Program-made: the position numbers and the translations under genes | Part shown: positions 5,813 to 10,928 of the stretch, one piece after another | Layout: the number at the start of each line of letters is the position of its first letter | Position numbering within the stretch: position 1 is the stretch's first letter | Notes under the pieces: generated by a model | What the model was told of the DNA's origin: nothing | What the model saw: the letters and a program-made list of their open reading frames with translations, nothing else | Databases searched by the model: none | Assembly: GCF_023028105.1 (NCBI RefSeq) | Contig: NZ_CP095491.1 | Coordinates: forward strand, 1 to 64,000 | Length of the DNA stretch: 64,000 nucleotides | Direction: 5' to 3' | DNA from: Halosolutus gelatinilyticus | GTDB lineage: Archaea > Halobacteriota > Halobacteria > Halobacteriales > Natrialbaceae

Positions 5813-6130
5813 ACTCGAATGCTCGTAATGATGTTTTAAATACATTTGTATTTCAATACCTATCGCTCGAGACGACCGTCTCGGACGACGATACGTGTGA
5901 ATCGTGTCTCGTACTCCGATCCACACTCGTGACGAGGACCGACGCGCCGCGATCGGTACTCGTTGTGGCCGCTACGCGTCGACGCGAACGTCGAACGTTG
6001 AAGATCACGGATTTGTGCCGTTCGACGCGCTCTACCTCGTCGAATCCAGCGGGGATACCATCATTTCGAGCGACGATACGTACGGAGCGTCGCCTCTCGT
6101 CTCGACCTGAAAACGATCGACGAGGAGCGA
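5813..6130. other. Intergenic region without a convincing gene
   Basis: About 320 bp between the M48-like gene (minus) and the first copy of the rfcL-derived repeat. It contains the TATA-like promoter of the M48-like gene near 5835-5842. Short frames exist on both strands, but their composition shows no coding pattern and they have no promoter or ribosome-binding support. Confidence 0.5.
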
Positions 6131-6196
6131 CGCTCTGCAACCACTAAACGCGGCTCACACCAACTCGTATCCGATGACCGACTGGACCGAGAAGTA
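6131..6196 (+). repeat. 66-bp direct repeat, copy A (duplicated rfcL promoter and 5' end)
   Basis: 60 of 66 bases match 9356-9421. The copy includes the TATA-like CTAAACG, then an ATG at 6174 followed by codons for M-T-D-W-T-E-K, the first seven residues of RfcL. The similarity stops after GAAGTA, and the next base makes TAA, so this is a seven-codon dead remnant. The only coding mismatch with the intact gene is synonymous (ACC versus ACG). Confidence 0.95.
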
Positions 6197-9100
6197 ACCA
6201 TAATTCGGAGGTAGTCATGTGTATTTGAAATGCCGGATATTCACTCAGAGGAATTTCCTTCAGCAGCGTTGAATCCACCAGCCACTGACATTGTGGCATG
6301 TTATCTCAGTAATGCCGAACTTTAACCGTCTGAATCGAGTATCCCGGCCTAATGAACCAAACCGTCGGACGCTATGACCAGCCAGAAGTACTGGGCCTCG
6401 AAAACGGTCTCGAGGCGTTTCAGTCCAGTCCTGAGTTCCGAGGTCCGGTTGAACCGCTCGACGAGCATACCTGCAACGATCACTTCGCACACATCTATGA
6501 GACACGTGAGGAGAAGTTTGAGGCCGCCGTCCCGTTTATTCGACACGGGCTCGAGCGCGGCGAGCGCGTCATGTACGTCATCGAGGAAAGTACTGAAGCC
6601 GAGGTGCGGGAAGCGATGCGCGACGCCGGACTCGACGTTGATACCGCGCTCACTGCGGGCGCATTGACGTTCCACACCGTAGAGGAGACCTATCTCCGAA
6701 ACGAATCGTTTGACCCCGACGAGATGATCGACTTCTACGATGAGATGGTCGCCGAGGCTACTGAGGACTACGAGGCGCTCCGGATCGTCGCCGAGATGAC
6801 GTGGCTCAACGACGACGATACGTTGGTCGAGCAGTTCATAGAGTACGAGCAGAAAATCAACGATCTCTTCGCCCACACGGATTCGCTTGCGATCTGCCAG
6901 TACAATCGCAACCTGTTCGCACCGGAGATCATCCGGAACGTCGTCCAAACGCATCCGCATCTCATCTACGACGGCGCCGCATGCCACAACGTCTACTACA
7001 CGCCGCCAGAGGAGTTCTTCGGTGCCGATGCACCAGCCCGCAAAAACGAGCGCATGCTCCGGACGCTCCGAGAGCGGACCACAGCGAAGGCCCAACTCCA
7101 CCGCCGCGAACGATTCCTGCAGAATCTTTACGAGGTCTCATCCGATCCCACGCTCTCGTTCGCAGAGAAATTGCAGGCGTTGTTCGATCTCGGATGCGAG
7201 CAGTTCGGCCTCGAACTCGGGGCGATGGCCAAGGTCGACCCCGCCGCCGATCAGTTCGAGGTCGAACTCGTGAGTGACGATCACGAGTACTTCGAGGCAG
7301 GTCTCGAACTCCCACTGTCGGAAACGTACTGCACCGCAGCGACCGATACCAGCGGGATCGGAAGCGTAGCTGATCCCGGTGAGGCCGGGTACGGCGATAT
7401 CTACGTTCATAATGAGTTCGGCATCAAGACGTATCTCGGCACCTATATCGAGGTCGAGGGCGACGACAACCGAACGTTCTTTTTCGTGTCCGAGAAGTCG
7501 CGTGACGAGGACTTCTCGGCTGACGAACGCACGTTCCAGCGGTTGCTGGGGCAGTGGGTCAAGTACGAACTCGAACGCCGGCAACGCGAACAGTTCCTCC
7601 ACAAGTGTTACGAGATCACGTCCAATCCCGCCCTCGACTTCGAGGGGAAACTCGAGCAGTTATTCGAACTCGGGCGCGACCGGTTTGGCCTCGAGATCGC
7701 CGGACTAAATCACTTGCCGTCATGGGACGGCAAATTCCGACTCGAGAAGGGCATCGGACTCGGCGTTGATTCCGATGAGGAGCTATGGACCGACCCGGAC
7801 GACGGCTGTTACTGCCGTCAGACCATGACCGAGGATAGTCCGGTCGGGATAGTCGACGTGCGCGACACCCGGTGGGCCGAGGACACGATCTACCAAGAGT
7901 TTGGACTAACGAGCTACCTCGGGACGAAAGTGTCGACCGGAGCCGCACCATACGGCACGCTCTGGTTTGGGAGTACCGAACCGCGGGATCGACCGTTTTC
8001 GCAGACCGAACGTTCGTTTATCGAGTTGATGGGGCAGTGGGTCAGCTACGAAATCGAGCGGCGCGAAAACAACGACTCCCAGCGGAAACTCTACGAAATC
8101 ACCGCAAATCCCGATCTCGATCCCGACGAGAAGATCGATCAATTGCTAGAAGTCGGCTGCAAGCGGCTGAACCTCCCGATTGGGATGCTCACTCGCAAAC
8201 GCGAGCAGGCATTCGAGATCGAGTATATGCACGGTAGGCATCCCGAGCTTGACGAAGGGACGCTCACCCCGCCGTTGACGGACAACTACTGCCGTCGCGT
8301 CGTCGACACTGGCGACTCGATTAGTGTCGGCGATGCCGGGGCGGCAGGATGGGACGGCGACGCGCTTTACCACGAATTCGATCTCGAGTGTTACGCTGGG
8401 ACGCAGGTGTTCGCCCGCGGTGAGAACTATGGCACCGTCTGTTTCACCGATATGGGGACCCGAGAAGAATTCACCGAGGCGGAGCAGGTGTTTCTGGATA
8501 TCCTTGGCCAGTGCGTGAGCTACGAAATCGAACGCCAACAGCACGAGGCCGATCTCAAGGAAACAATCGATCAACTAGAACAGTCCAATGATCGACTGAG
8601 GCAATTCGCCTATGCCGCCTCGCACGACCTACAGGAACCGCTCCGGATGGTTTCAACGTATCTACAGCTACTGGAGAACCGATACAAGGAGGATCTTGAC
8701 GAGGACGCGCAGGAATTCATCGATTTCGCAGTCAATGGAGCTGACCGGATGCGGGAGATGGTCGATGATCTGCTTGCGTTCTCACGGGTCGAACGCGCTG
8801 ATGACGAGTTCGATCAAATTGACTGTGACGCAGTCCTCGACTACGTCACGGACGATCTCCAGATACAGATCGAGGAGAACGATGCGGAGATCATCAACGA
8901 GTCACTTCCGACGGTGCGAGGCGACCAAGAGCAACTGGAACACCTGTTCAGTAATCTCGTCTCGAACGCTATCAAATATAACGAAAATGATCGGCTGCGC
9001 GTCGAAATCTCGGCCGACCAGCGGCCTAACCGCTGGAAATTCTCAGTTACCGATAACGGAATCGGGATCGATCCAGACGAAGCCGACAAGATATTTGAAG

Positions 9101-9355
9101 TTTTCAAGCGGCTCCACCACGATAACGAGTACTCGGGGACAGGAGTCGGGCTCTCGCTATGCCAAAACATCGTCAATAATCACGGTGGAGAAATCTGGGT
9201 TGAATCCGAACCCGGTGAGGGATCGACGTTCTCATTTACGCTTCCCGCGGTCGAGAATCCGGCGCAGTGAGTCACGTCCCTATTGTTCTCTGGGAGCCGG
9301 GACCTGTCTTAAAACGATATTGACTACGACGGCTGGCCCAGCATCTTCAGACCAG
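6197..9355. other. Low-GC islet inserted at the 5' end of rfcL
   Basis: Segment between the two 66-bp repeats. It holds only one gene, the histidine kinase at 6352-9270. Base composition differs from the surroundings: in 8941-9000, 27 of 60 bases are G or C by hand count, and 6200-6350 is also AT-rich, whereas flanking genes are far richer in GC. No integrase or transposase is present, so if this came in with an element, it is reduced. Import by homologous recombination at rfcL is an alternative. Confidence 0.6.
6352..9270 (+). CDS. Sensor histidine kinase with MEDS domain and three GAF domains
   Basis: 972 residues, soluble. Order: an N-terminal MEDS/DcmR-type sensory domain (about 35-235; NDHFAHIYETREEKFEAAVP, then RGERVMYVIEE), three GAF domains that each begin with a LYE(V/I)-type helix (about 250-400, 420-565, 575-735), a coiled linker, HisKA with the phospho-acceptor His758 in AASHDLQEPLRMV, and HATPase_c with NAIKYN, DNGIGI and GTGVGLSLC. 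No receiver domain or response regulator is adjacent. A TATA-like CTTTAACC about 31 nt before the ATG suggests its own promoter; the captured rfcL promoter lies upstream as well. Lower GC than its neighbours suggests transfer. Ligand unknown. Confidence 0.9.
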   Translation: MNQTVGRYDQPEVLGLENGLEAFQSSPEFRGPVEPLDEHTCNDHFAHIYETREEKFEAAVPFIRHGLERGERVMYVIEESTEAEVREAMRDAGLDVDTALTAGALTFHTVEETYLRNESFDPDEMIDFYDEMVAEATEDYEALRIVAEMTWLNDDDTLVEQFIEYEQKINDLFAHTDSLAICQYNRNLFAPEIIRNVVQTHPHLIYDGAACHNVYYTPPEEFFGADAPARKNERMLRTLRERTTAKAQLHRRERFLQNLYEVSSDPTLSFAEKLQALFDLGCEQFGLELGAMAKVDPAADQFEVELVSDDHEYFEAGLELPLSETYCTAATDTSGIGSVADPGEAGYGDIYVHNEFGIKTYLGTYIEVEGDDNRTFFFVSEKSRDEDFSADERTFQRLLGQWVKYELERRQREQFLHKCYEITSNPALDFEGKLEQLFELGRDRFGLEIAGLNHLPSWDGKFRLEKGIGLGVDSDEELWTDPDDGCYCRQTMTEDSPVGIVDVRDTRWAEDTIYQEFGLTSYLGTKVSTGAAPYGTLWFGSTEPRDRPFSQTERSFIELMGQWVSYEIERRENNDSQRKLYEITANPDLDPDEKIDQLLEVGCKRLNLPIGMLTRKREQAFEIEYMHGRHPELDEGTLTPPLTDNYCRRVVDTGDSISVGDAGAAGWDGDALYHEFDLECYAGTQVFARGENYGTVCFTDMGTREEFTEAEQVFLDILGQCVSYEIERQQHEADLKETIDQLEQSNDRLRQFAYAASHDLQEPLRMVSTYLQLLENRYKEDLDEDAQEFIDFAVNGADRMREMVDDLLAFSRVERADDEFDQIDCDAVLDYVTDDLQIQIEENDAEIINESLPTVRGDQEQLEHLFSNLVSNAIKYNENDRLRVEISADQRPNRWKFSVTDNGIGIDPDEADKIFEVFKRLHHDNEYSGTGVGLSLCQNIVNNHGGEIWVESEPGEGSTFSFTLPAVENPAQ

Positions 9356-9421
9356 CGCTCCGCAACCACTAAACGCGGCTCGCACCAATCCGTATCCAAT
9401 GACCGACTGGACGGAGAAGTA
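9356..9421 (+). repeat. 66-bp direct repeat, copy B (native rfcL promoter and start)
   Basis: The functional copy of the repeat at 6131-6196. It spans the TATA-like CTAAACG about 29 nt upstream of the rfcL ATG (9399) and the first codons of the gene. The six differences from copy A fall at 9361, 9382, two in 9389-9390, 9398 and one synonymous codon change. Confidence 0.95.
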
Positions 9422-10928
9422 CCGCCCGACGACTCTGTCGGAGGTGCGCGGAAACAACAAGGCTCGCGACCAGTTGCGAGAGTGGGCCGAAACCTGGGAC
9501 GACCACCGCAAGGCGGCGATCGTCCACGGGAGTCCGGGCGTGGGGAAGACCTCCGCCGCCCACGCGCTGGCCAACGACATGGGCTGGCCCGTGATGGAAC
9601 TCAACGCCAGCGACAGCCGCGGGGCCGACGTGATCCAGCGCGTCGCCGGCGAGGCCTCGAAGAGCGGTACGCTGACCCGCGGCGGCAGCGGGCGGCGACT
9701 CGTCGTCATGGACGAGGCGGACAACTTCCACGGCAACGCCGACTACGGCGGCTCGCGCGAGGTAACGCGCGTCGTCAAGAGCGCGAACCAGCCGATCGTC
9801 CTCATCGCGAACGAGTTCTACGAGATGAGCCAGTCGCTGCGCAACGCCTGCGAGACGATCGAGTTCCGCGACGTCTCGAAGCGCTCGATCGTCCCCGTGT
9901 TGCGGGACATCTGCCGGCGCGAGGACGTCGAGTACGAGGAGGAAGCCTTAGAGAAGATCGCCGAGAACACGAGCGGCGACCTCCGCTCGGCCGTCAACGA
10001 CCTCCAGGCGATCGCGGAGGAGACCGACCGACTGACCGTCGACGACGTGGTGACCGGCGAGCGCGATCGCACCGAGGGGATCTTCGACTTCCTCGACGCG
10101 CTCATCAAGGAGGAGGACGCCCAGGGCGCGCTGTACGCCTCCTACGACGTCGACGAGACGCCGGACGACCTCCTGAACTGGATCGAGGACAACGTTCCGA
10201 AAGACTACGAGGGCGCCGAACTCGCGGACGCCTACGAGTTCCTCTCGAACGCCGATCGGTGGCTCGGCCGCGTCCGGGCCACGCAGGACTACTCCTTCTG
10301 GCGCTACGCGACGGACAACATGACCGCCGGCGTCGCCGCCTCCCGTCGCGAGCCGAAGGGGGGCTGGACGCGGTACGGCCCGCCGAGCTACTGGTCGAAA
10401 CTCGGCCGGACGAAGGGGACGCGAAACACCCGGGACGCGATCGCCGAGCGCATCGCCGAGCGCGAGGGGACCAGCGTCGCGACGGCCCGCCGCGAGATCC
10501 TGCCGTTTCTCGCGGCGATGACCCACCACTGCAAGAACCGCGACCTGACCGTTCGCATGGCCGCGGTCTACGATCTCGACGCCAAGGAGGTCTCCTTCGT
10601 TACCGGGAGCGGCAAGGACACCAACAAGGTCCAGTCGATCGTCGAGGATGCCGAGGAGCTGCTGGCCGAGGAGGCGGTCGAACACTCCGGAAACGCGTTC
10701 TTCGTACCCGACGATGCCGAGGAGACGCGGAACGCCGAGGACGCGAACTCCGGGAACGAGGACCCCGGCGCCGATACCGACGCCGAATCCGCGGACGAGC
10801 AGCAAACGCTCGCCGCGCCGACCGACGACGGGACTACAGGCGGTGACGACGACGCCGATCCGGAGGCGACGGGCGAAACCGAACGAGAGTCGGACGACGA
10901 CCAGGCGGGACTGAACGATTTCTTCTAG
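9399..10928 (+). CDS. rfcL: Replication factor C large subunit
   Basis: 509-residue large subunit of the archaeal clamp loader, which with RfcS opens and loads PCNA on primed DNA. Walker A is GSPGVGKT (44-51) and Walker B LVVMDEAD (101-108); sensor and collar regions follow. The last ~80 residues are highly acidic and low-complexity, ending in QAGLNDFF (502-509), a textbook PIP box (QxxLxxFF) for PCNA binding. The start is leaderless, with CTAAAC about 29 nt upstream inside the 66-bp repeat. Downstream genes are not obviously linked. Confidence 0.97.
   Translation: MTDWTEKYRPTTLSEVRGNNKARDQLREWAETWDDHRKAAIVHGSPGVGKTSAAHALANDMGWPVMELNASDSRGADVIQRVAGEASKSGTLTRGGSGRRLVVMDEADNFHGNADYGGSREVTRVVKSANQPIVLIANEFYEMSQSLRNACETIEFRDVSKRSIVPVLRDICRREDVEYEEEALEKIAENTSGDLRSAVNDLQAIAEETDRLTVDDVVTGERDRTEGIFDFLDALIKEEDAQGALYASYDVDETPDDLLNWIEDNVPKDYEGAELADAYEFLSNADRWLGRVRATQDYSFWRYATDNMTAGVAASRREPKGGWTRYGPPSYWSKLGRTKGTRNTRDAIAERIAEREGTSVATARREILPFLAAMTHHCKNRDLTVRMAAVYDLDAKEVSFVTGSGKDTNKVQSIVEDAEELLAEEAVEHSGNAFFVPDDAEETRNAEDANSGNEDPGADTDAESADEQQTLAAPTDDGTTGGDDDADPEATGETERESDDDQAGLNDFF

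Follow-up and report, generated by a model that had tools for sequence, protein, structure and literature searches.

The window, a 64,000-nt stretch of the Halosolutus gelatinilyticus genome, carries a direct repeat (D9) of 66 nt whose two copies match at 60/66 positions (91%) and lie 3225 nt apart, start to start. Between them is an islet of ~3.2 kb with a histidine kinase as its single gene; the right copy runs into rfcL, which encodes the large subunit of replication factor C. The features are as follows.

5982..6083, + strand: decayed C-terminal end of a VapC (PIN) toxin, found by tblastn
6131-6196: left repeat copy (D9)
6131..6173, + strand: promoter region of the left copy, a displaced rfcL promoter presumed to be that of the original host (D9; promoter HMM, 61 bits)
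6174..6197, + strand: dead rfcL start of the left copy, seven codons then TAA
6180..6195, + strand: left att core GACTGGACCGAGAAGT, attL side, at the boundary common to 36 integrase-less islets and 6 integrase elements
6352..9270, + strand: cassette gene, a MEDS-GAF-HisKA-HATPase histidine kinase of 972 aa (Pfam; genome search)
9356-9421: right repeat copy (D9)
9356..9398, + strand: promoter region of the right copy, the working rfcL promoter, presumed cassette-borne (D9; analogy with genomes G072, G093 and G100)
9399..10928, + strand: rfcL, replication factor C large subunit, 509 aa (ORF; Pfam AAA and RFC lid domains)
9405..9420, + strand: right att core GACTGGACGGAGAAGT within rfcL codons 3–8, attR side (shared boundary; end of the cassette homology between the window and G072)

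The left copy reads ATG ACC GAC TGG ACC GAG AAG TAA (6174–6197), and within its seven codons the sole difference from the right copy is synonymous (ACC/ACG). GC content is 53–60% in the islet versus about 65–70% in the flanks. Directly upstream of the dead start sits the vapC fossil, 76% identical in amino acids to residues 76–109 of the vapC found at the rfcL site of relatives (tblastn, E 5e-14), which we read as the leftover of an older vapBC unit that lay ahead of the original rfcL start. In a search of the 11 kb upstream, the second start copy scores 54 versus 13 for shuffled queries; the whole genome holds two copies of the repeat and no third. There is no integrase in the islet, where the kinase is the only gene, and no integrase of the rfcL-adjoining type described below (E ≤ 1e-40) in the window’s genome. 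An earlier sequence-only reading had described a 66-bp repeat (60/66) around one kinase gene in a low-GC segment, with a dead left copy (TAA after codon 7), a functional rfcL start on the right and a synonymous sole coding difference. All of this held, the repeat and GC contrast on re-measurement and the fate of the two starts as read from the sequence; its statement that no integrase remains is right for the window. The repeat as a common dispersed promoter sequence, which that reading named as a refutation, is ruled out by the presence of only two copies in the genome.

We gathered rfcL loci from relatives and searched their upstream DNA for further copies of the start. In the family-wide survey of 113 loci, 36 genomes, that of the window among them, have two start copies separated by an islet that lacks an integrase. 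Most of these islets measure about 825 bp and hold a toxin–antitoxin pair, made up of a VapC PIN toxin and an AbrB-like antitoxin. The window kinase (89–92% identical) is present in 6 of 125 family genomes, five besides the window, spread over four genera and every time at the rfcL start. The next-best proteins (≤68% identical) are other kinases, differently placed, and no orthologue was found in the closest congeners, G001 and G002. The kinase unit is alike in content and size across several genera, at 89–94% DNA identity, which demonstrates movement of the integrase-less unit itself.

The survey also returned loci with features of their own. About 1.9 kb upstream of rfcL in G093 (L082), an islet carries genes for a BAT/HTH_10 regulator and for a protein resembling response regulators, making this a third type of signalling cargo at the rfcL site. 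The rfcL start region of G113 is found on two contigs with equal score (L083, C4 ~143033; L084, C1 ~1687814), possibly a sign of a duplicated or plasmid-borne rfcL. At L053 (G012), an unrelated promoter lies upstream of rfcL with no start copy detected upstream; this could conceivably be a large insertion that escaped detection.

The site and its boundary are shown by comparing left and right copies. Over the 36 integrase-less pairs, identity falls from 0.92 at core nt 15 to 0.11 at nt 16, and integrase elements have the same boundary and block as the integrase-less islets. The core common to elements is GACTGGACSGAGAAGT, 16 bp corresponding to rfcL codons 3–8; in many left copies the sequence is GACTGGACCGAGAAGTC, which has GACT...AGTC arms. 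The integrase elements have this block in common but unrelated promoter regions; thus the attachment site is the core and not the 66 bp.

Empty sites are shown for other carriers. Relative to its congeners G073 and G074, G072 has an extra vapBC cassette at the core, between flanks at 95–96%. In G072 the left copy agrees with the start found in the congeners, the right-hand promoter is foreign (as are those of G093 and G100), and rfcL is identical to that of G074 for at least 60 nt from the ATG. The pairs G093/G114 and G100/G113 give the same empty-site pattern. For the window only a partial match to an empty site was obtained (223 nt, 82% to G141), and a partial match to its left flank, by way of the vapC tail, exists in other genera.

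Transfer between genera is also shown. An 822-bp vapBC cassette is about 99% identical between G092 and G100, which belong to different genera, the identity beginning and ending in the 16-bp core; rfcL itself is about 85% identical (4-fold-site identity 0.60) and the left promoters differ. G018/G107 agree with this pattern, and the 822-bp unit moved between genera very recently. For the kinase, 4-fold-site identity between the window and G109 is 0.89, versus 0.575 for rfcL, and between the window and G087 0.835, versus 0.614. The kinase values lie far above those of rfcL, and so the kinase cassette has moved horizontally. Homology between the kinase cassettes of the window and G072 stops at the right core, where G072 continues into vapBC and the window into rfcL, and homology between the window and G109 starts at the left core. 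Cassettes are moreover found in tandem: G072 has a kinase then vapBC, G109 two kinase units, G015 an IS-disrupted vapBC cassette then a 29-kb integrase element, and G375 (from another family) an intact vapBC to the left of a 35-kb integrase element.

An integrase clade belonging to this site is shown likewise. Searching 392 genomes of the order, we found ten related tyrosine integrases, all adjoining rfcL. They match PF00589, keep invariant R-K-H-R-H-Y catalytic residues and group as a single clade (support 94/91; 97% of bootstraps) whose members come from three families of the order; integrases more distantly related lie elsewhere than at rfcL. Both ends are available for six elements (35.1, 29.3, 26.6, 13.9, 13.3 and 7.6 kb), each of which has a displaced rfcL start at its far end; in the other four, the available sequence stops short of the left end. 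The islands of G003, G019 and G015 (13–29 kb) illustrate the arrangement, with the PF00589 integrase beside rfcL and the displaced start at the far end. A small gene separates integrase and rfcL in 10/10 elements; it resembles a ribbon-helix-helix protein by eye only and has no match among the Pfam families tested. A scan of named genomes returned three of the ten elements (Haloarcula amylolytica JCM 13557, Haloprofundus marisrubri SB9 and Halorubrum tebenquichense DSM 14210) and otherwise distant integrases. Phages and plasmids searched for free forms gave only distant integrases, and viral contigs gave neither an integrase of the rfcL type nor an rfcL promoter match. Family scans of the proteins of two large elements revealed no clear virus hallmark, and their nature as virus or plasmid is not assigned. 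The kinase unit was not found in any form that bears an integrase. In G075, a 2-kb islet at rfcL (L214 100-2150) encodes a GH16 glycoside hydrolase and the small gene, with no integrase hit, and is likely a relic of an integrase element.

We consider it likely that the window contains a cassette without an integrase, acquired horizontally and inserted at the rfcL start by site-specific recombination. In the mechanism that we propose, the first ~22 nt of rfcL would serve as attB for a clade of haloarchaeal tyrosine integrases, with crossover within GACTGGACSGA (nt 7–17 of rfcL). An incoming circle would bring its own promoter and first codons, so that integration would split off the old promoter with seven codons and supply a new start. 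The window unit would consist of the histidine-kinase gene with an rfcL promoter and start downstream of it; its left copy would be the former host start, with the older vapC remnant before it, and its right copy would have come with the cassette. Movement of this unit in trans by an rfcL-specific integrase, via a circular intermediate, is inferred without experiment, and any benefit of the kinase to its host is inferred too.

The sequence-only reading had suggested that DNA entered at the 5′ end of rfcL and rebuilt its start, and this is supported by the ten integrases, six complete elements and 36 genomes. Beyond its reach were the extent of the attachment core, 16 bp inside codons 3–8 rather than all 66 bp, and the nature of the unit as a recurrent integrase-less cassette in four genera. 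It had called for empty sites, which were found in congeners of other carriers, the window itself being only partly matched; for other duplicated rfcL starts, of which 36 family genomes (including the window) have examples with the same boundary; and for integrases using rfcL, ten of which lie beside the gene among the 392 genomes. Close relatives with the kinase next to rfcL but neither repeat copy would have counted against insertion; the nearest congeners, G001 and G002, are without a kinase orthologue.

Some data restrict this interpretation, among them the lack of an integrase in the window islet and of the rfcL type in its genome. The right crossover of the window has not been mapped directly, the right copy being truncated in the nearest cassette (G109), and the right promoter spacer of G087 differs from that of the window. 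Left and right promoter spacers are identical within each of G138, G122, G105, G084 and G068 (L130, L125, L135, L127 and L141), an identity exceeding the 99th percentile of cross-genome pairs, and spacers differ widely between genomes. A core-only crossover between species therefore does not explain these five cases; gene conversion or same-species donors might. G023 and G024 share a cross-genus tract that is not core-bounded and, taken with the identical spacers, this means that homologous exchange or gene conversion also acts at rfcL.

Other origins of the islet can be weighed against insertion of a mobile cassette. It is possible that the islet is an immobile, shrunken relic of an integrase-bearing element that lost its integrase after insertion. 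G075, with the small gene kept and no integrase hit, shows that such relics exist, and integrase loss is reported for archaeal elements (PMC8371274). The constant content and size of the kinase unit across genera, at 89–94% DNA identity, argue against a relic, as does the very recent movement of the 822-bp vapBC unit. Less probable is homologous recombination without an integrase, in which a relative’s fragment with a ready-made duplicated start and kinase was taken up via the 66-bp repeat and rfcL. It would have 66 bp of homology on each side, and both the G023/G024 tract and the identity of some left and right promoters speak for it. However, the donor-to-host switch in G072 lies at the core, with rfcL host-like at once, and in G092/G100 both ends are in the core and the left promoters differ; this explanation also leaves the first origin of the duplicated start unaccounted for.

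We find it hardly credible that the kinase was always beside rfcL and that the start was duplicated in place, by tandem duplication or slippage. The 91% likeness of the left and right copies favours this idea, but G001 and G002 lack a kinase orthologue, the kinase is sporadic in four genera, its 4-fold-site identity is far above that of rfcL, and the duplicated segment ends alike in unrelated islets. Tandem duplication in place next to a native kinase is ruled out by the distribution and the 4-fold sites.

Insertion of mobile cassettes at the rfcL start, our preferred reading, points to a new and heavily used archaeal integration site that lies within a gene essential for DNA replication and has a dedicated integrase clade, spread over at least three families of haloarchaea. 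Very small integrase-less units travel between genera, by recombination that would be confined to about 11 bp. Each insertion swaps the promoter of the clamp-loader gene, so that mobile DNA would repeatedly rewire expression of a replication protein. The site is a possible tool for haloarchaeal genome engineering and a clean system for studying trans-mobilisation of cassettes in archaea.

In the way the target is used, the closest match comes from dusA-associated genomic islands (Farrugia et al. 2015, PMC4482086): one clade of integrases is devoted to the 5′ end of a single protein gene, the direct repeats are imperfect and 21 bp long, and the island provides a new 5′ end and promoter. The rfcL elements are alike in dedicated integrase clade, repeats and new 5′ end. 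Direct repeats lie inside the rfcL 5′ end at both island ends, as membership of such a class requires, and the island supplies a new promoter and start in G072, G093, G100 and the integrase elements; that the window islet did likewise is inferred. An integrase of its own is present in the ten other elements and absent from the window islet, which in this respect fails the dusA-type definition. The dusA islands are bacterial and target a tRNA-modification gene, whereas the rfcL system is archaeal and targets a clamp-loader gene, with most insertions, unlike those at dusA, being integrase-less cassettes of 0.8–3.2 kb. SXT/R391 ICEs integrate at the 5′ end of prfC and supply a new start; these are large conjugative bacterial elements with their own integrase, unlike the window cassette.

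Haloarchaeal tyrosine integrases such as that of SNJ2 (PMC8371274) use att cores as short as 13 bp, with small accessory proteins in the case of SNJ2, and share with the rfcL integrases their nature as tyrosine recombinases of mobile elements in Halobacteria. Archaeal targets in that work are mostly tRNA genes, and rfcL is not among the protein genes named (HMG-CoA reductase, an efflux system and an AsnC regulator). In the literature searched, which leaves out most subscription journals, we came across no paper that links rfcL to integration or describes it as an attachment site.

CIMEs (PMC5704250), described as decayed ICEs or IMEs, have attL and attR without a recombinase and are stacked in tandem with integrase-bearing elements at one site. 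The window islet matches the first property, keeping attL and attR without integration and transfer genes; accretion with an integrase-bearing element is seen in G015 and G375, not in the window’s genome. The rfcL cassettes are akin to CIMEs in their recombinase-free stacking and differ in being very small, recurrent units that move between genera. They work like integron cassettes, both being integrase-less gene cassettes in head-to-tail arrays, except that the recombination site is an essential-gene start carried by each cassette and there is no resident integrase. A bolder reading, which we would neither press nor dismiss, is of an integron-like system without a resident integrase. Its small cassettes (toxin–antitoxin pairs, sensor kinases and regulators) would each end in a portable rfcL start with its promoter; they would be swapped between haloarchaeal genera and stacked at this essential replication gene by rfcL-specific integrases working in trans.
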